A DNA stretch of 64,000 nt from Flavobacteriaceae bacterium EG-1 (GTDB lineage Bacteria; Bacteroidota; Bacteroidia; Flavobacteriales; Flavobacteriaceae), in the NCBI RefSeq assembly GCF_009649685.1, contig NZ_WJPK01000006.1, forward strand, positions 62,001 through 126,000. The letters run 5' to 3'. The position numbers and the translations under genes were made by a program. The notes under the pieces are model-generated. The model saw only the letters and a program-made list of their open reading frames with translations. It ran no database searches and had not been told where the DNA came from. Shown here one piece after another: positions 8,962 to 18,137 of this stretch. Numbering within the stretch: position 1 is the first letter of the stretch; each line of letters opens with the position of its first letter.

Positions 8962-10155
8962 TTACCTCGGCTGAAGGTCTGGATCAATCCCCATCATAGC
9001 CTTTGCTAAAAACTCACGTGAGATATAAGCATTCGCAGGATGAATTTTGCCCAATCTCGCATCTCGGAACATGCGTTCAAAACCAGCTTTGTGCAGTAAA
9101 CCATATCCTCCCATTATATCCATTGCTTTATCTACAACTTTCCAAGAACCTTCCACGGACCGGCATTTAGCAGCAACTATTTTAACACCCCAAGCAGGAC
9201 CATAATCTTTACCCTCACTCCATTCTCGTGCAACAGTATCTAAATGAGGCCCAATTCCTTCTATCTCCATTACCATTTCACCAACGTCATGTTGTATAAC
9301 ACCATTATACGCCATTGATGGGCGATCAAATGAAATTGATTTTTTCTGCGGAAGTTTTTCTAAAACCATGTGTAATACACGTTGTGCAAGACCGTAATAA
9401 ACATTTGCAAACCCCATTAATGCCCAGCAAAATACCCCCAACACAAAACCATCCATACCCTTAAAACCGGTTGGAAGTTTTCGAACAATCATTGCATCTG
9501 GCACAAATACACCATTTAAAATGGTATCATCAGAACGTGTAGCGCGCATACCTAAAACATCATCCCAAGATTCTTTTATTTCATAATTTTTAGTTTCCCT
9601 AGGCATAAAAGCATGAATTACTAATGGATTATCTGGATCACTATTATCTTGTCCATGAAAACCTAAATAATCCCAAACAGGTGTTAAACTACCAAACATT
9701 TTATGACCGGTAAATTTATACCCGCCCTCAACTTTTTCTGCTTTACAAGTAGAATAGGTTGCAGGGGAATCATTACCAGATTCGCCATGGCCAGCAGCAA
9801 AAACTTTACCTTTTCCGGCTTCTTCCAATAACCATTGTATGGAGGTATCACCGGCTCTCCATAAATCGGCAACCAAACCCGTCCAATACACATGCATATT
9901 TAAAGCAAGTGCCGTAGGGGCCGCGTGATATGCTAATTTTCGAGTTATTTGTTCCACTTCGTCTAACAACATGCCATAGCCACCAAATTCTTCTGGAACC
10001 GCAATTAATAAATACCCAGCTTCTTTTAGATCATCAAAATCTTCTTGAAAAAACAAGTTATTGGCATCGTAATGTGCCGCTCGTTTTCCACAATTTTCGA
10101 AAATGGTTTCTAATTTCTCTAAGAGTTCTATTTTATTGTTACTTTTTGTTTTCAT
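8962..10155 (-). CDS. Acyl-CoA dehydrogenase family protein
   Basis: A 397-residue flavoprotein of the acyl-CoA dehydrogenase fold. It has an N-terminal helical domain (LIAVPEEFGGYGM near 53-65), a middle beta-domain (GGYKFTGHKMFGSLTP near 143-158, WDDVLGMRATRSDD near 196-210) and a C-terminal helical domain with IMGGYGLLHKAGFERMFRD near 348-366. No signal peptide, so cytoplasmic. The divergence from standard fatty acid enzymes, and a C-terminus resembling flavin-dependent monooxygenase relatives, leave the substrate open. It sits 40 bp upstream of the TonB receptor-like gene on the same strand. It is distinct from the 754-residue enzyme at 19249. Confidence 0.8.
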   Translation of the reverse strand: MKTKSNNKIELLEKLETIFENCGKRAAHYDANNLFFQEDFDDLKEAGYLLIAVPEEFGGYGMLLDEVEQITRKLAYHAAPTALALNMHVYWTGLVADLWRAGDTSIQWLLEEAGKGKVFAAGHGESGNDSPATYSTCKAEKVEGGYKFTGHKMFGSLTPVWDYLGFHGQDNSDPDNPLVIHAFMPRETKNYEIKESWDDVLGMRATRSDDTILNGVFVPDAMIVRKLPTGFKGMDGFVLGVFCWALMGFANVYYGLAQRVLHMVLEKLPQKKSISFDRPSMAYNGVIQHDVGEMVMEIEGIGPHLDTVAREWSEGKDYGPAWGVKIVAAKCRSVEGSWKVVDKAMDIMGGYGLLHKAGFERMFRDARLGKIHPANAYISREFLAKAMMGIDPDLQPR

Positions 10156-10194: not shown

Positions 10195-11154
10195 TTAATT
10201 TCTGTCTAGAAAATCCAATACCATTGAATTAAATTCTATTGGATTTTCGACTTGTAACCCATGCGATGCTTTTGGCAAAATCTCAAGTTCATTATTGGGT
10301 AAGAGCGTGACTAAAGTGTCTATTATTTTACCAAAAAATCGTGGTGAATGTTCGCCTTTAATTAACAATGTGGGAACATTCAGTTGTTCGACTTCATTCG
10401 TAGCTATTGGCGTCCAATTATTCTTAGAAATAAATCCTCCTTCCGATTCAGTAGTATTTTGCAACCACAGATTTCTAACTTCCTGTGGGACCTTACTATA
10501 ATAATCTTTACTACCCATTACTCCTGCTACAAAAGTGGCAACTGCCGAATCTTTTTGTTGTTGGGCAAAGAATTTTGTGGCAGGCAGAATAACCGTATTA
10601 TTAATATCTGAAATCAACGAATCGCCTTCTTTCGACCCTGCCATTAAAGGTGCAACGGCAGGCTCGCCTAACACCAAACTTGAAACTAATTCTGGATGAT
10701 CAATTGCTGTTTTTAAAACAGTGTAACCTCCCCAAGAATGACCAACAAGGTGCGCCGATTCTAAGTCTAATTTTTTTAATAGCTGAGCAAGATCTTTCGC
10801 ATGTTGTCCTGCAGAATAATCGAGTGTATCCGATAACGGTTGGGCATTTGGCCATGCGTAACGACGACTATATGCAATAACTCGATACTTGCTCGCGAAC
10901 GTATCAATTTGATTTTGCCAAGCTCTATAATCTCCAATACTGCCATGAACGAACACCAATGGTTCTCCTTTTCCAATATCTACATAATTAAAGGTATCCC
11001 CATTAATATTTATCTGTTTAAGTATATGGGTATTGGGTTGTTTTTGAATTGCTTCCAATGTAGACTTTTTCTCAACTACAGTTTCTTTTTTATTGTTATT
11101 GCGACATGCAGCAGCAAACAACATAACAAACAAAATGGTAAATAGGTTTTTCAT
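10195..11154 (-). CDS. Alpha/beta hydrolase lipoprotein
   Basis: A 319-residue alpha/beta hydrolase with a lipoprotein signal (MKNLFTILFVMLFAAAC, lipidated Cys17), so anchored to a membrane in the envelope. It has FVHGSIGD near 68-75, the nucleophile elbow GHSWGG with Ser140, and a C-terminal ASHGLQVE carrying the catalytic His. The acid position falls in KGEHSP where many relatives have Asp, so Glu may serve as the acid. The substrate is unknown. It is the third hydrolase in this 8-kb stretch. The gap to the next upstream gene is 243 bp and contains nothing clear beyond AT-rich sequence. Confidence 0.8.
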   Translation of the reverse strand: MKNLFTILFVMLFAAACRNNNKKETVVEKKSTLEAIQKQPNTHILKQININGDTFNYVDIGKGEPLVFVHGSIGDYRAWQNQIDTFASKYRVIAYSRRYAWPNAQPLSDTLDYSAGQHAKDLAQLLKKLDLESAHLVGHSWGGYTVLKTAIDHPELVSSLVLGEPAVAPLMAGSKEGDSLISDINNTVILPATKFFAQQQKDSAVATFVAGVMGSKDYYSKVPQEVRNLWLQNTTESEGGFISKNNWTPIATNEVEQLNVPTLLIKGEHSPRFFGKIIDTLVTLLPNNELEILPKASHGLQVENPIEFNSMVLDFLDRN

Positions 11155-11397
11155 ACTTCCTAAATTTTGATTTTGAATATATTTTACGTCAGCTTAAAAG
11201 ATTTAAAATCTTCTTCACTAAAAAACATTAATAAATTTTCAACAAAAGAGGGGGAAGTTTTGAGCTACTGTATTAATTAAAAAAACTCAAATATTTGATT
11301 TTCATAAAGTTACTCATCAGAAATCGATATTAATGTAAATTATGTATCTAATGATAGAACATATGTATCATTTGTATAAATCGCATGATAAATGCAA

Positions 11398-12204
11398 CTA
11401 AAACGACACAAGTAGCTCTTTTAAAAGAACAACTACTGCCATTAAAAGAATAAACCAGCCAAAACTTTTTTTAAGATTTTTATTTTTAATAAATGTCGCT
11501 AGATAAACCCCTATAAAAATACCTGTGCATGAAATTAAGGTGAAAACTAAAAGAAATACCCAATTGACTTCTATACTATTTATTCCACCAAAAAATCCGA
11601 TTAAAGATTTTATTGCAATAATAAAAAGGGAAGTCGCTACCGCTTTTTTCATTGGCAATTTCACGAAGAATACGAGGACCGGAATAATTAAAAAACCACC
11701 ACCAATACCCACCAAACCAGTTAGTGTTCCAATAACTACACCTCCAACAATTAACAAGGGAAAGTTATAAGTAATTGTTACGTTTTCTTTAATCGAATTA
11801 TGATTATTGCGAATCATAGACATCGATGCCAATATCATTAATCCTGAAAAAAGGAGCATAACGGCCATATTCTTTGTTAATACAAATTCGCCTATTCTTA
11901 CTATATTATCTGGAATTATCGTTAAAATATATCGTCGAGTAATATAAACAGTAATAAAAGCAGGTATCGCAAAAACAAGTGCCACTTTAAAATCAATTAA
12001 TCCTTTTTTAAAATTTTTCAAGGCACCAATAGTAGCCGAAGTTCCAACTACAAATAATGAATATGTTGTTGTGGCAATAGGACTAATTTGGAACATATAC
12101 GTTAAAATTGGAATAGCCAAAATGGAGCCCCCTCCCCCCAATAGCCCCAACACTAAACCAATTGTTAATGCTCCAAAATATCCTAAAACATGTACAATTT
12201 CCAT
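11398..12204 (-). CDS. TauE/SafE family membrane permease
   Basis: A 268-residue inner membrane protein with about eight hydrophobic helices in two halves, each with the family glycine-rich motif (GLVLGLLGGGGSILAIPIL near 16-34; GLVGIGGGFLIIPVLV near 163-178). TauE/SafE (UPF0721) proteins export or import sulfonates, sulfite and related sulfur anions. It is the last gene of a tight four-gene operon with a TsdA-like cytochrome c and two DsrE-type proteins, with 19 bp between it and the DsrE gene. That context supports a sulfur oxyanion or sulfane-sulfur substrate (inference). Confidence 0.88.
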   Translation of the reverse strand: MEIVHVLGYFGALTIGLVLGLLGGGGSILAIPILTYMFQISPIATTTYSLFVVGTSATIGALKNFKKGLIDFKVALVFAIPAFITVYITRRYILTIIPDNIVRIGEFVLTKNMAVMLLFSGLMILASMSMIRNNHNSIKENVTITYNFPLLIVGGVVIGTLTGLVGIGGGFLIIPVLVFFVKLPMKKAVATSLFIIAIKSLIGFFGGINSIEVNWVFLLVFTLISCTGIFIGVYLATFIKNKNLKKSFGWFILLMAVVVLLKELLVSF

Positions 12205-12223: not shown

Positions 12224-12637
12224 TTATTTACCTTCCTTTATATAGCCCCAACCCAGTTGTTGTTTTGCTACAATCTCATAAATACCATCAGGCACAGTTG
12301 TAACTCCAGGAATTAAATCATCTTTACCTTTTTTATTTCTTTTTAAAGTGTTTTCACAAACCACGATTGACACATTCTCATTTTGTATAATATCACGAAG
12401 TGTCTCGCCCGCAGCAGAAGAATTATTATCTACCATACTATAGGCACTACTATAAATAACCATTTCAAACTCGGAATCGGGATAACTTTCAGACATTAAT
12501 CGCAGGTGTCTAGCCGCCGATCTATGTACATCCGCATTAGCACTGGTTACATCAAAAACTACCTTTATTGGTTGCTCTTGAGCACTACTGCTACTTGCAA
12601 CAAACAGAGCCATGACTAATACTATTAGATTTTTCAT
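12224..12637 (-). CDS. Exported DsrE family protein
   Basis: A 137-residue protein with a signal peptide (cleavage near SSSAQ, residue 20) followed by a single DsrE-fold domain. KVVFDVTS is near 25-32, a conserved Cys94 lies in VVCENTL, and the C-terminus has the family ending VPDGIYEIVAKQQLGWGYI. DsrE-fold proteins often carry persulfide sulfur on the equivalent Cys during sulfur trafficking. Export to the periplasm is predicted here, unlike classical cytoplasmic DsrEFH. It lies between the Tat-exported paralogue (18 bp upstream) and the TauE gene (19 bp downstream). Confidence 0.85.
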   Translation of the reverse strand: MKNLIVLVMALFVASSSSAQEQPIKVVFDVTSANADVHRSAARHLRLMSESYPDSEFEMVIYSSAYSMVDNNSSAAGETLRDIIQNENVSIVVCENTLKRNKKGKDDLIPGVTTVPDGIYEIVAKQQLGWGYIKEGK

Positions 12638-12655: not shown

Positions 12656-13336
12656 TTAATTACTTGCAAAAATGTAACCACAACCATTTTCTTGTGCTCT
12701 TCCCAAGGCCCAAACTCCTGATGGAACTACTTGTATTCCTGGTTGCACTGCATCCAACCACTCTTGATATACTTCTTTAGCATCTAAGCCCATTTTTTGA
12801 GCAACAACCCCACTATACACAGATAAGGCCAAATTGCAGACACAGAACAAAGCCCCTCTTTTTTGCATATCTTTTATTCCTTGAATCACTGGCATTGGAA
12901 AATCTCCTTCTTTTGGCTCGTAATACGGGTTACGTAAAGAAGGTGCCTTAGTACTGTTATCTGTAACACCAAAAACCTCACCTAGATTGTACTTTTTCCA
13001 TACTTCAGTTTTTAATGCAAACGGAATAGCATTATGTCTTAAAACGGTCATTGCTGTAATATCTTCATCCTTCGAACCTGTTTCATTATTACTTAAATAG
13101 AAGGCCCAATTCCATATAACAGGAAAACCATCATGTGGTGTAGAACCATCATAAACTATTCTGTGTTTTCCTTTTATATTTTTAAACCAATCGTCTGCAG
13201 CAGCCATTTTTTCATCATCAAATGATGTCGTATTTGCCAAGACAGGATTAGAAATTATCGAAAGGGTACTTGCTGTAGCCCCCATTAATACTGCTCCCAT
13301 GAAATTTCTTCTAGAATTTTTACGCTTTGTTTTCAT
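12656..13336 (-). CDS. Tat-exported DsrE-like protein
   Basis: A 226-residue protein with a twin-arginine signal (NSRRNFMGAV, Arg9-Arg10; cleavage near VLAN, about 34), so exported folded, possibly with a cofactor. The mature part looks like an enlarged DsrE domain. HRIVYDGS near 58-65 matches the first strand, GALFCVCN (Cys165, Cys167) matches the DsrE cysteine strand, and VVPSGVWALGRAQENGCGYI at the end parallels the ending of the neighbouring DsrE protein. A third Cys is at 219. It lies 6 bp downstream of the cytochrome c gene and is clearly co-transcribed. The function is inferred only from fold and context. Confidence 0.7.
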   Translation of the reverse strand: MKTKRKNSRRNFMGAVLMGATASTLSIISNPVLANTTSFDDEKMAAADDWFKNIKGKHRIVYDGSTPHDGFPVIWNWAFYLSNNETGSKDEDITAMTVLRHNAIPFALKTEVWKKYNLGEVFGVTDNSTKAPSLRNPYYEPKEGDFPMPVIQGIKDMQKRGALFCVCNLALSVYSGVVAQKMGLDAKEVYQEWLDAVQPGIQVVPSGVWALGRAQENGCGYIFASN

Positions 13337-13342
13337 AATAGT

Positions 13343-14389
13343 CTATTTAGATTTAACAATATTGTACTTCTTTTTATAGTATTCTTTGATGGGTGAAAAA
13401 GGCCCCAATTGATGTTGCTTAACTGAGAAAGTATCGGCATACGGAGGGTATGGTGTTGATACTGGTTTTTTCTTTATGTCCGGAAAATCAACTTCTTTAT
13501 TTTTCTTTTCAGGTCTTTCTTGTTGATTGATGTATCCTGCAACATCATAAGCCTCATCATCCGTTAAAATTGGATTTTCATAGGTTGCACCATAAGGCAT
13601 ATTGGCCTTAATAAATTGTGCAGCGGTAATTACTCTAGTCATACCTGCTCCATTATTGTAAGAATCACTTCCCCACAAGGGTGGAAATTCATAAGCTATA
13701 CTGTCTGCTAACCATTTACCTTGACCATTTTTTTCATGACACACAATGCAATTTGCATTAAACACTTTTTTACCATTGGTAAGATTAACTGCCCTTGATG
13801 GTATATTTATTTGAACAAAACCCTGACCTTTAATTTTACCGTCGGCTGGAGCGAATCTGCTTAACCAATTCATGTAAGCTATTAATGCCAACATTTCTTC
13901 ACTTTCAGTAGGGAGAGCAATTCCGTTCATGCTACGTTCCATACAGCCGTTAACGCGTTCCACTATCGTACCTATTTTATTTTCTCTTCCTCGAAACTGT
14001 GGAAATCGCTGTATAATTCCAATTAATGGAGCTGCATATGGTTTTGTACCTGACCATAAGTGGCAATTCGCACATGACAAATTATTACCAGAAAATTTAC
14101 CTCCCTTTTTTTTAGGCCCTATAAATTTGGAAGTATAACGGAATACTTCAAAACCCTTTTTTATTTTTCTATTTTCATCTGAATCATTTAGCCGTGAAAC
14201 ATTATAATTCTTTGTATAAATTTCCATACTCGAATTATCATTTTCATTGCCCTGAAATTTCTCATCTAAGCAAAACCCCAGTGCTACAATGGCAATTAAT
14301 AGTAGTGGCAGAATCACATGTAAACTACCTGAAATCATTTTGCTATACGAGTTGTATAGATATTTTCTTATCACAATGAATATGTGCAT
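13343..14389 (-). CDS. Dihaem cytochrome c resembling thiosulfate dehydrogenase TsdA
   Basis: A 348-residue c-type cytochrome with an N-terminal membrane anchor (about 20-38) and two haem motifs, CANCH (106-110) and CIVCH (214-218). Around the first haem, CANCHLWSGTKPYAAP and then NGCMERSMNG, with Cys149, match the TsdA pattern in which a Cys is an axial haem ligand. TsdA oxidises two thiosulfate to tetrathionate, or runs in reverse, in the periplasm. A second start at codon 18 (14338) is possible. It is the first gene of the operon with two exported DsrE-like proteins and a TauE permease. The substrate is inferred, not shown. Confidence 0.72.
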   Translation of the reverse strand: MHIFIVIRKYLYNSYSKMISGSLHVILPLLLIAIVALGFCLDEKFQGNENDNSSMEIYTKNYNVSRLNDSDENRKIKKGFEVFRYTSKFIGPKKKGGKFSGNNLSCANCHLWSGTKPYAAPLIGIIQRFPQFRGRENKIGTIVERVNGCMERSMNGIALPTESEEMLALIAYMNWLSRFAPADGKIKGQGFVQINIPSRAVNLTNGKKVFNANCIVCHEKNGQGKWLADSIAYEFPPLWGSDSYNNGAGMTRVITAAQFIKANMPYGATYENPILTDDEAYDVAGYINQQERPEKKNKEVDFPDIKKKPVSTPYPPYADTFSVKQHQLGPFSPIKEYYKKKYNIVKSK

Positions 14390-14654
14390 AGTGTATATTC
14401 AAATTAATTTTTTGTAAAAAAATTGGACAATAATATACCTGTAGGCTATTCAATGCCTATGATTAATTTTAAATTTCAAGGGGGATTCGGCTACGGGAAA
14501 AGACTAGAATTCTTGCTCCGAATTATTAAAGTAAAACTACGATAGCTTCCATTAAGAAAATGTCAATTTTAATTCAAAGGTTCGCACAAATAAACCAAGA
14601 ATGTACTTTCTGTCTCAAATAATGAAACAAATGAATCAACTTGGTAAATTAATA

Positions 14655-15737
14655 CTAAAAATGAGTATTGGAAAGCTTAGCAAATTGTGTTGGTAAAATG
14701 TCGAATCTTTTTCTAAAAACTCTTGTAAAATAAGTAGGACTGTTGAAGCCAAGTTCATAAGCTATTTCAGCTACGTTCTTATTATTTTTTTTCAGTGCAC
14801 TTAAGGATCGACGTAACCGCATTTCACGAATAAGTTGATTGGGTGCCATCTCTGTAAGGGCCTTTATCTTTCTATAGGTTTGTGCTTTACTAAGCCCTAA
14901 TTGGCTACTTAGATGTACACTTGTAAAATTAGTATTCGAAATTTCCTGATTAAGAATAGTCCATAATTTGGTACAAAAAGCTAAGTGCGCACTCGATAAT
15001 CTACGTACATCATTACCAATTTTTTCCTGATTTTTTTCTGATTTTCCTGCTAATCCTATTGTAATATTATCTATTTGTACAATTCTGATTTTACTTAAAT
15101 CATTAAGCGCCACTAAAGCTTTCTTAGTTTCTTCAAATAGTACTTTACCGTTTTCATCAACAGGTTTTCCTGTAACAAGAGCCAAGGTATATTCGAGATT
15201 GCAAGTAAAAGTATTGAGGTAATCCCTAATGGATTTTACTGCAGTTATAGATTTACTAGCACTAACAAATGATACTAAAATACTGTCTTCAGGAAGTACA
15301 ATTCTTTTACCTCCGCATGTTTCGATTAAACTATAAAGTTTATCTAGTACATGTGCTTTAATATCCTCAAAAAAAATAGGGCAAATCATAATAATACTCC
15401 GATAGCCCGTATCTATATCCCCAGTTAATGTGAGGGCCATATCATTTTCATCTTTAGCACCCTCACCTAAAAACACTTTGAAATCAATTTCGCTTGAAAG
15501 TTCGATAACATTACAAGCACCTATTCCATGAGCAGCCATATGAACAGCTTCACAGGCTTGTTTATTTGGAGCATCTAACAAGCAAAATACCTTTTTCTCC
15601 GAAAGATTTAAAAAATACTTGAGACTAGTAACTCCAAACTTACTCTGAACCGCAATATCTTTATGATGCCCTTTCATCGCGGCAATTTGATCAAAAGCCT
15701 CATCTTCGACTACGTGTATGTCCATAAATAGTGGCAT
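14655..15737 (-). CDS. DUF4242 / cyclase-like / AraC-type regulator, paralogue 1
   Basis: A 360-residue cytoplasmic protein with three parts. Residues 1-90 are a DUF4242 (SCO4226 nickel-binding-like) domain, with HHKDIAVQSKFGV and VHMAAHGIGACNVIE. Residues about 115-235 resemble a class III nucleotide cyclase homology domain (YTLALVTGKPVDENGKVLF matches the cyclase segment after the second metal site). Residues about 260-360 are an AraC DNA-binding domain (LGLSKAQTYRKI, then GFNSPTYFTRVFRKRF). The first metal-binding Asp of the cyclase is missing (IIMICPIFF), so catalysis is unlikely. It is the last of three tandem paralogues and lies 265 bp upstream of the TsdA-like operon. The ligand is unknown. 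Confidence 0.75.
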   Translation of the reverse strand: MPLFMDIHVVEDEAFDQIAAMKGHHKDIAVQSKFGVTSLKYFLNLSEKKVFCLLDAPNKQACEAVHMAAHGIGACNVIELSSEIDFKVFLGEGAKDENDMALTLTGDIDTGYRSIIMICPIFFEDIKAHVLDKLYSLIETCGGKRIVLPEDSILVSFVSASKSITAVKSIRDYLNTFTCNLEYTLALVTGKPVDENGKVLFEETKKALVALNDLSKIRIVQIDNITIGLAGKSEKNQEKIGNDVRRLSSAHLAFCTKLWTILNQEISNTNFTSVHLSSQLGLSKAQTYRKIKALTEMAPNQLIREMRLRRSLSALKKNNKNVAEIAYELGFNSPTYFTRVFRKRFDILPTQFAKLSNTHF

Positions 15738-15761
15738 GTACTAAAAATACAGAATTTTTAG

Positions 15762-16838
15762 TCAAATTGCATTTAATCGTGCAAAGGATGTTGGAAGTAC
15801 ATCATACCTATTTCTAAAAACTCTTGTAAAATATGTAGGACTATTAAAGCCTAGTTCATATGCAATTTCGGCCACCGTTTGTTGATTACATTTTAGTGCT
15901 TTTAGTGATCTTCGTAATCTAAGCTCTCTAATTAATGCATTCGGTGACATCCCAGTTAACGATTTTATCTTTCTATAAGTTTGTGCTTTACTCAGGTTTA
16001 ATTGATGTCCTAGGTTCTCACTTTTGAAATCAGCATTATTCAATTCGCTATTTAGAATTTTTGTTAGTCTTTCACAAAATAATAAATCAGATGTGTTCAC
16101 TATTTTCACATTAGCATGATTCACTTTTGGAGTATTGGATTCTTTATGAGATAGTGCTTCGGTAATAGCATCCATATAAACTACTTTACTTAAACCAATC
16201 CAACATAACGTTCGCACCCTTTTTTTTGTTTCTTCAAAAAGATCTACTCCATTTTCATCAACTGGATTTCCACTAACCAAAGCCAATCGATATTCAAAAT
16301 TATCTGGAATTGTTTTCAATAATTTAGCAATTGCCATTGCGGCAATTATTGCATCTGAAGCCAATAAAAATGATGCCATAGTTTCATCATCATTTGGTTG
16401 TCGCACAATTTTTCCATGGAATTTATCTATTAATAGCCTTGTTTCCTTTACATAATGTGCGTAATTACCTGAGAAGTCTGATGTATTTATCAACATAATT
16501 GTTCTAAAACCTGTATCGATTTCACCGTCCGACGTGTATGCCAAATCATCCTTTTGTGTACTTCCACGAGACATGAATATATTATACTCATCATCAGAAA
16601 CTTCAATAATATTACAGGCCGTCATACCATGTGATTCTGAATGTGTTTTATGACAAGCTTCTTTATTTGGGCCTTCCATAAGACAAAAGACCATTTTATC
16701 TTTTTCGTTCACCCAATACTTTCGTTGTATAACGCCAAAACGTTCTTGTACAGCAAGGTCATGTAAATGCGCCTGAATTACATCCTCTACTGTAAAATCA
16801 TCAGATTCAACTTTATGTATATCCATATATAGCGGCAT
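15762..16838 (-). CDS. DUF4242 / cyclase-like / AraC-type regulator, paralogue 2
   Basis: 358 residues with the same three-part build as its neighbour: a DUF4242 domain (residues 1-90; HLHDLAVQERFGV, HSESHGMTACNIIE), a cyclase-like middle (about 115-235; RTIMLINTSDF, YRLALVSGNPVDENGVDLF) and an AraC domain (LNLSKAQTYRKI, GFNSPTYFTRVFRNRYDVLP). The first cyclase Asp is Asn here and the usual catalytic Asn/Arg pair is absent, so the domain is probably a sensor. Its AraC domain is close to that of paralogue 1, suggesting a recent duplication. Gaps of 24 and 18 bp to its neighbours indicate one operon. Confidence 0.75.
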   Translation of the reverse strand: MPLYMDIHKVESDDFTVEDVIQAHLHDLAVQERFGVIQRKYWVNEKDKMVFCLMEGPNKEACHKTHSESHGMTACNIIEVSDDEYNIFMSRGSTQKDDLAYTSDGEIDTGFRTIMLINTSDFSGNYAHYVKETRLLIDKFHGKIVRQPNDDETMASFLLASDAIIAAMAIAKLLKTIPDNFEYRLALVSGNPVDENGVDLFEETKKRVRTLCWIGLSKVVYMDAITEALSHKESNTPKVNHANVKIVNTSDLLFCERLTKILNSELNNADFKSENLGHQLNLSKAQTYRKIKSLTGMSPNALIRELRLRRSLKALKCNQQTVAEIAYELGFNSPTYFTRVFRNRYDVLPTSFARLNAI

Positions 16839-16856
16839 AATTCTTAGTTTTAAATT

Positions 16857-17969
16857 CTACATTTTTAACTTGGTATAACTTAATGGTAATAATCCAAATC
16901 TTTTTTGAAAACATTTAATAAAGTAAGACGGACTATTAAAACCTGTATCAAAAGCTGTTTGCGAAACATTAAGTCCTTTTTCACCTAACAACACCAAAGA
17001 TTTTAACAATCTATATTCTCGCAATATGGCATTTGGAGATTTACCAGTTATTGCAGTACATTTACGATACAATTGCGATTTACTAATTGCTAAAAATTGG
17101 CAAAAGCCATTTATTCCGAAATCGGAATTTTGCCAATTAACATCCAATACATTTACGATTTGCTCTAACGACTTTTCTTCTGATGCTTTTAGTCTTTTAA
17201 TATCTTTTTGAATTTCACTTCCCTTTTGGAAATCGGGTTTATACAATTCGCTAACCATTGCAGAAATTGTTATACTTTGTTTTGATGCTATAGTACAAGC
17301 GTATTGCGCAAATAGTACCGTTTTACCAAACAGTGAATTACTTTGATCCACAGGAAGACCAGCATGCAAACCCATTCTTAAATTGATGATTTCTGCTGCA
17401 ACATGTAAAGATTTTCTAATGGCTATTGCACATTCAACTGCAAGTGAGACTGAAGCAAATGAAATTACAAAAGCATCAGCATTCATTTCAACTTCACTTC
17501 CTTCATGTTTTTGCACCTGTTCTCGAACTGTATTGTAATACAAAGTAAATAACTGGTCAACTTTTTCCTTTTTTAATTCATTTCGCATTAATCTACCATC
17601 TTTAGTGGTGACAGCTAAAATGACCCTAAATGCCGGATCGTTGAATATTTTTACACCAGGTAAACTTGGATCAAAATAATGTTCGGGGTCTGCTATTCTA
17701 CCTAAAAAAGCTTCAACTACTTTACCATTAACTGGAATAATTTCGTGCGGAACAAGACCGTGGGAGTGATTGTGCATTAGATGCACCGCTTCTTTATTGG
17801 GAGCATCGATAAGACAAAAAACTCTACCTCTACCCTCATCCACCCAGTACGTTAAATTTCGACATCCAAATTTATTTTGAATACCCAAATCCTTTTGATG
17901 AGCGTCTGCTGCATGTTTGGCTTCTATTCCAGGAACTATATGTGAGTCCATGTAAATTGGCATGTTCAA
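16857..17969 (-). CDS. DUF4242 / cyclase-like / AraC-type regulator, paralogue 3
   Basis: 370 residues and the most upstream of the three tandem regulators. The DUF4242 domain is residues 1-90 (HQKDLGIQNKFGC, HNHSHGLVPHEII). The middle domain (about 115-250) is the clearest cyclase relative of the three: NADAFVISFASVSLAVECA, then LRMGLHAGLPVDQSNSLFG and KTVLFAQYACTIA follow class III cyclase order, but the first metal Asp and the catalytic Asn/Arg are replaced. The C-terminal AraC domain has LAISKSQLYRKC and GFNSPSYFIKCFQKRF and is more diverged than in the other two. The start at 17969 gives MNMPIYMDSH; Met3 (17963) is equally possible. Confidence 0.75.
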   Translation of the reverse strand: MNMPIYMDSHIVPGIEAKHAADAHQKDLGIQNKFGCRNLTYWVDEGRGRVFCLIDAPNKEAVHLMHNHSHGLVPHEIIPVNGKVVEAFLGRIADPEHYFDPSLPGVKIFNDPAFRVILAVTTKDGRLMRNELKKEKVDQLFTLYYNTVREQVQKHEGSEVEMNADAFVISFASVSLAVECAIAIRKSLHVAAEIINLRMGLHAGLPVDQSNSLFGKTVLFAQYACTIASKQSITISAMVSELYKPDFQKGSEIQKDIKRLKASEEKSLEQIVNVLDVNWQNSDFGINGFCQFLAISKSQLYRKCTAITGKSPNAILREYRLLKSLVLLGEKGLNVSQTAFDTGFNSPSYFIKCFQKRFGLLPLSYTKLKM

Positions 17970-18137
17970 AAAAATTTAATAAAACTTTTGATTCAGCAAA
18001 GGAGGGAATACTCTAAAAATAAGGAATTTAAGTAGGAGAAAATCGAACTTTTGATTCAATTAATGATAAAAACGTTTCATATCTAGTATAAATATGCCAC
18101 GGTTTCCTTTTTGTCTCAACTAAACAATGTAAAATAG

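Follow-up and report, generated by a model that had tools for sequence, protein, structure and literature searches.

Three tandem AraC-family proteins with DUF4242 and degenerate class III cyclase domains, and the 21-bp repeats beside their genes

What might three neighboring regulators sense, and which genes might they control, when each carries a DUF4242 domain and a cyclase-like domain ahead of its DNA-binding domain? The question arises from a 64,000-nucleotide stretch (the window) of a marine Flavobacteriaceae genome, that of Flavobacteriaceae bacterium EG-1. It is addressed here by computation on the domains, their degeneracy, distribution and gene linkage, and the conserved repeats found nearby. 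The genes are three adjacent minus-strand ORFs with gaps of 24 and 18 bp, confirming the tandem arrangement proposed in a sequence-only reading of this DNA (Table 1). The order of transcription is P3, P2, P1, and the operon begins 174 bp after ruvB. The P3 ORF was called from TTG 17969; the starts of its homologues agree with ATG 17963 (MPIYMD).

Table 1. Features of the regulator locus and its predicted operators and targets (window coordinates)
Feature	Position	Strand	Details
P3, first gene of operon	16857..17963	-	368 aa counted from ATG 17963; DUF4242 ~1-83; degenerate cyclase domain ~105-246; AraC domain ~274-363
P2	15762..16838	-	358 aa; DUF4242 1-84; degenerate cyclase domain 105-235; AraC domain 263-352
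P1	14655..15737	-	360 aa; DUF4242 1-83; degenerate cyclase domain 106-236; AraC domain 263-352
Two TGAATCAAAA sites, P3 promoter region	17986..18058	-	18058-18049 and 17995-17986; conserved in L006 and L008
Predicted operator 1	14556..14638	-	Four units from 14638, 14617, 14596 and 14576 (periods 21, 21, 20); between P1 and tsdA
Promoter-like site	14532..14566	-	TTGACA 14566-14561 / TATCGT 14544-14539; TAnnTTTG-like TAGTTTTA 14539-14532
Predicted target 1a, TsdA-like dihaem cytochrome c	13343..14389	-	Thiosulfate dehydrogenase homologue; 4wqc, E 2.7e-45
Predicted target 1b, Tat-signal protein	12656..13336	-	Conserved tsdA neighbor in three genera
Predicted target 1c, secreted DsrE-like protein	12224..12637	-	E 5e-4, just under Pfam cut-off
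Predicted target 1d, TauE/SafE-type (TSUP) exporter	11398..12204	-	Pfam
Predicted operator 2	11329..11370	-	Two units from 11370 and 11349 (period 21), then TAACTTTA
Predicted target 2a, secreted alpha/beta-hydrolase	10195..11154	-	
Predicted target 2b, acyl-CoA-dehydrogenase-like flavoprotein	8962..10155	-	PF08028 type

All three proteins have the domain order that had been read from the sequence, DUF4242 followed by a class III cyclase-like domain and an AraC domain, as judged by Pfam, profile searches of the PDB and two AlphaFold models. HMM searches of the segments place the three N-termini above the curated Pfam cut-off of PF14026 (SCO4226-like, DUF4242; E = 2e-11, 4e-16, and 6e-19), and the C-termini above those of HTH_18 (E ~1e-18; 65.7–67 bits against 33.6) and HTH_AraC (40.7–43 bits against 26.6). 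By these tests P1, P2, and P3 are members of both PF14026 and the AraC/XylS family. The middle segments have no match in Pfam. The NCBIfam LipJ cyclase model covers residues 131–242 of P3 (E = 2.9e-11), at a score far below its equivalog cut-off, and a family profile searched against the PDB aligns exactly the middle segment with 3mr7 (6.8e-15), Ma1120 (5e-14), and Rv1900c (1.4e-9). Bacteroidota class III cyclases were likewise found by profile (E ~1e-15). In the AlphaFold models of P2 and P3 (pLDDT 83.9 and 80.4), similarity to Ma1120 is given by TM scores of 0.63–0.68, and the AraC domains score 0.87–0.90; the P2 model matches SCO4226 (4oi6) with TM 0.84 over a ferredoxin-like fold. The resemblance of the middle region to class III cyclases and of the N-terminus to DUF4242, on which the sequence-only reading depended, therefore both hold, and by fold and sequence homology the middle segment is a class III cyclase-homology domain (CHD).

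The CHDs can be aligned end to end with Ma1120 and Rv1900c/LipJ and have a like fold, but have lost their Asp-1, Asn, and Arg. In an alignment with Ma1120, 3mr7, and Bacteroidota cyclases, the first metal-binding Asp (Asp-1) is replaced by Cys, Asn, and Thr in P1, P2, and P3, respectively, the transition-state Asn by Lys, Lys, and Leu, and the transition-state Arg by Ala, Thr, and Tyr. Only the Asp-2 position of this set is retained, as Asp in all three proteins. The loss of the first metal Asp and of the catalytic Asn and Arg, noted in the sequence-only reading, is thus borne out throughout, and judged by these residues the three CHDs are cyclase homologues, not cyclases. In AraC-fused proteins generally, the positions of Asp-1, Asn, and Arg are highly variable in a decay-like manner, and some relatives retain Asp-1 or one of Asn and Arg. 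In the gene pairs of family f38 (L098, L100, L102, L103), one copy has Arg without Asn and the other Asn without Arg. Complementary active sites were considered for these pairs and rejected, as one of Asn and Arg would be missing from every interface site.

A survey found the three-domain order across the Bacteroidota, as single, paired, or triple genes. Of 392 genomes sampled from the phylum, 20 encode proteins combining DUF4242 and CHD (one of the proteins ends at a contig end), and all of these proteins bear an AraC domain except L099. Among the nearest 99 genomes PF14026 is present in 20, mostly in frames of 355–390 aa. Most loci hold a single three-domain gene. Four genomes carry the f38 gene pair, in fixed order and with its members in separate clades, and recurring orders are also seen for P3–P2 in Pricia MAG contigs (with a third gene in one) and for P2–P1 in Aurantibacter. 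P1, P2, and P3 diverge deeply in the tree, and of its two main clades one contains P3 and the other P1 and P2, which rules out a recent tandem duplication; together with the recurring gene order, this indicates that the window genes are old, distinct lineages kept together. Such a fixed order of diverged paralogues makes hetero-oligomers or divided work among the three proteins more plausible. In Pseudozobellia sp. WGM2 a 110-aa P3-like remnant (L007:4643–4975) lies directly upstream of an intact P2 orthologue and points to the loss of one pair member.

Two-domain relatives bear on the origin of this architecture. L099, from the same phylum, is a DUF4242–CHD protein without AraC in which Asp-1, Lys, Asp-2, Asn, and Arg are all kept. 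Five proteins from plasmids of Rhizobiaceae and Azospirillum (L106–L110) share the first two domains, also lack AraC and are labeled "nickel-binding protein" where annotated; they are 35–38% identical to P3, and all five keep the whole catalytic set but Asn, which is Gln. No shared neighborhood was seen for the rhizobial genes in three annotated loci. L099 and L106–L110 lie on the same side of one branch (support 90/87). If the root is placed there, the proteins with AraC form a single group, which would be accounted for by catalysis having been lost after one fusion to AraC. The existence of two-domain relatives with intact or nearly intact catalytic residues suggests that the transcription factor probably arose from a cyclase. 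This would be an apparent enzyme-to-regulator case with apparent intermediates still extant: two-domain proteins that are intact, and AraC-fused proteins in which decay is partial or complete.

Downstream of the regulator genes, a direct repeat with a period of 21 bp stands out. Over 37 gaps, period 21 is an outlier against dinucleotide shuffles (z 7.3, next 2.8). Measured against other periods it reaches z 7.2 in the downstream gaps, compared with 1.0 in 190 control gaps of the same loci and 0.7 in the upstream gaps of the same genes. A lag-21 repeat upstream as a general rule was consequently rejected; in the P3 lineage alone, single TGAATCAAAA sites are conserved there, and the two before P3 suggest possible autoregulation. 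After thinning of close relatives period 21 is still top (z 5.2), but the repeat is degenerate and often weak in individual loci: considered one by one, only six of 25 thinned loci have 21 as their best period. In the window the gap downstream of P1 (14390–14654) holds a four-unit repeat that is kept in Aurantibacter, Pricia, and two Pseudozobellia despite a different downstream gene, which is an EncM-like oxygenase in P. thermophila and tsdA in the window. The −35-like box TTGACA lies within the last unit of this predicted operator, as in the araI2 layout; the direct half-sites araI1–I2 of AraC have a 21-bp period and adjoin the −35 region. In Pseudozobellia (L005, L007), where P2 stands alone, a four-unit predicted operator also follows it, so three regulators are not required for four units. 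The downstream gaps of the f38 pairs resemble GCAACAAATGTTGCA, and a GCAACAAATG-like copy recurs 21 bp further on.

The 4.45-Mb genome was scanned with an operator sequence model (R1), yielding E-values that are rough. The best match (window 14555–14642, E = 3e-23) is a training sequence. The second (11332–11389, E = 0.0057) lies 3.2 kb away, ahead of the genes for the alpha/beta-hydrolase and the acyl-CoA-dehydrogenase-like protein, and is taken as predicted operator 2. The third has a value near to it (E = 0.0067) and no evident target, and the remaining matches were dismissed as patternless and chance-like. The chance of a random second match within 5 kb of the first is about 0.2%. Operator 2 recurs before the orthologous genes in Pseudozobellia sp. 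WGM2 (L007, E = 4e-4) and in Aurantibacter crassamenti (E = 1e-3), where the hydrolase is gone and the dehydrogenase retained. The repeats mark the genes most likely to be switched on by the regulators, among them a putative thiosulfate-oxidation operon. The Tat-signal protein of that operon belongs to no Pfam family and has a weak NCBIfam match to the TetH-type thiosulfate dehydrogenase model (E = 0.011).

The commonest neighbor of the three-domain genes in other genomes is a FAD_binding_4/BBE protein of ~460 aa, present at 20 of 42 loci, always on the same strand, and not nearby at the other 22. In 19 of the 20 linked loci it lies <1.8 kb downstream of the regulator. Among solved structures, the closest relative of this protein is by a wide margin EncM (E ~1e-138, compared with 3e-74 for the next family). 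This EncM-like FAD oxygenase is found in 26 of the 392 genomes, namely 9 of the 20 that carry a three-domain gene against 17 of the 372 that do not (Fisher p = 6e-7), and it accompanies both main regulator clades, so that the link is probably old. A search of the EG-1 genome at E 1e-100 returned no EncM-like oxygenase, and the usual target thus seems to be absent there. Further recurrent neighbors are SnoaL-like proteins (10 loci), secreted stand-alone DUF4242 proteins (7), nitrilases (5), truncated globins (3), and cupins. The link to the regulator also gives a way to approach what EncM-like flavin oxygenases do in Bacteroidota.

In the reading that we consider probable, these are one-component AraC-family regulators with a DUF4242–dead-cyclase sensing half that act on the 21-bp repeats. 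DUF4242 and the CHD, whose ancestor was probably a working cyclase, would form the sensing and dimerizing half, the state of which would be relayed to the AraC domain. Dimers would bind the direct repeats just downstream of the regulator genes and recruit RNA polymerase to the adjoining promoter, as at araI1–I2. P1, P2, and P3 would accordingly be expected to activate, not repress. The controlled operon in many Bacteroidota would comprise the EncM-like oxygenase together with small SnoaL-like, cupin, and truncated-globin partners, while in the genus of EG-1 the same operator would stand before tsdA-dsrE-tauE and before the hydrolase–acyl-CoA-dehydrogenase operon. A ligand may bind in DUF4242, in the old cyclase cleft, or in both, and the three proteins may cooperate. 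It is tempting, if rather doubtful, to go further and suppose that the dead cleft still binds a nucleotide or pathway compound, that DUF4242 reads a second signal through the invariant D/H/H/D/C/H set, and that P1, P2, and P3 form mixed dimers on the four-site operator.

Other readings of the same data differ in where they place the function. The repeats could belong to some other regulator and be tied to the three-domain proteins only indirectly, as adjoining operons could have different regulators and operator binding is a prediction. This is improbable, given that the repeat follows three-domain genes in many families, is absent from other gaps of the same loci, and has the 21-bp spacing of AraC-type sites. 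It is very hard to believe that P1, P2, and P3 have remained nucleotide cyclases that may work as mixed dimers, with the AraC domain as an accessory. The retained fold and Asp-2 would suit such enzymes, as would the relatives that keep Asp-1 or one of Asn and Arg and the f38 copies that keep Arg and Asn, respectively. However, Asp-1, Asn, and Arg are absent from each of the three proteins, so no pairing of them restores a site; the f38 interface sites are incomplete too, and the adjoining predicted operators indicate DNA binding as the function.

That the proteins are metal-responsive regulators, with DUF4242 binding nickel or another metal and the cyclase domain as a mere dimerizing spacer, is unlikely overall but deserves serious attention. 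Most invariant residues fall in DUF4242; D6, H8, H24, D27, C52, and H66 are found in 53 of 53 members, and SCO4226 of Streptomyces coelicolor (4OI3/4OI6), a stand-alone protein of 82 residues with the same fold, has the same set (D6/H8/H23/D26/C51/H65). SCO4226 binds Ni2+ through Ni-1 ligands D43, S46, and H76, with a measured affinity of only 10 μM (PMC4186839). Against the metal reading, this Ni-1 set is not conserved in the family (H76 is Ile or Val in 53 of 53, S46 is variable, and D43 is Asp or Asn), which rules out nickel sensing through that site, and there is no known metal exporter or importer among the recurrent linked families. P1, P2, and P3 are not SCO4226 equivalogs, scoring 28.7–44.9 bits with NF033706 (SCO4226 nickel-binding protein) against an equivalog cut-off of 125 bits. 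In the SCO4226 structure the side-chains of M5, Y50, and L52 are directed into the dimer interface, so D6, H8, and C51, at alternate positions, should face the helices bearing H23, D26, and H65. The invariant set may therefore form an internal site, for a metal or otherwise. The predicted operators and regulon provide concrete tests of what DUF4242, the subject of one crystal study so far, senses.

The proteins resemble E. coli AraC in their C-terminal double helix-turn-helix, N-terminal sensing half, and 21-bp half-site period, but here the sensing half is DUF4242 plus CHD, not a cupin or other known AraC sensor. Cyclase and DNA-binding domains are joined in one chain in mycobacterial CHD-HTH proteins such as Rv0386, and also in a 778-aa protein of the EG-1 genome (L111, G000:C6:28528–30864). 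The latter differs in its intact catalytic set (Asp-1, Asp-2, Asn, Arg), lack of DUF4242, and long TPR-like middle preceding a C-terminal AraC-type domain. Cyclase–AraC fusion has therefore arisen in more than one form, and the kind is known. The titles and abstracts returned by a literature search on DUF4242 and SCO4226 do not describe the present architecture, and a search on class III cyclase with AraC found nothing; at that level the DUF4242–pseudocyclase–AraC variant, its predicted operator, and its predicted regulon appear undescribed. New in this analysis are the EncM-like linkage, the 21-bp repeat after the regulator gene, and the predicted operators before two operons.

The top Foldseek match across two domains is the photoactivated adenylyl cyclase OaPAC, in which a ferredoxin-like sensor likewise precedes a CHD. 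It differs in that the sensor is BLUF, not DUF4242, in domain placement (rmsd ~17 Å), and in being an active enzyme. DUF4242 also occurs in other settings. The secreted stand-alone DUF4242 proteins beside a three-domain regulator (L069, L070, L071, L092, L094, L095, L097) retain C52 and, in most cases, H66, whereas D6, H8, H24, and D27 are not kept, and proteins or gene remnants with two tandem DUF4242 domains are found at L059 and in genomes G214 and G479.
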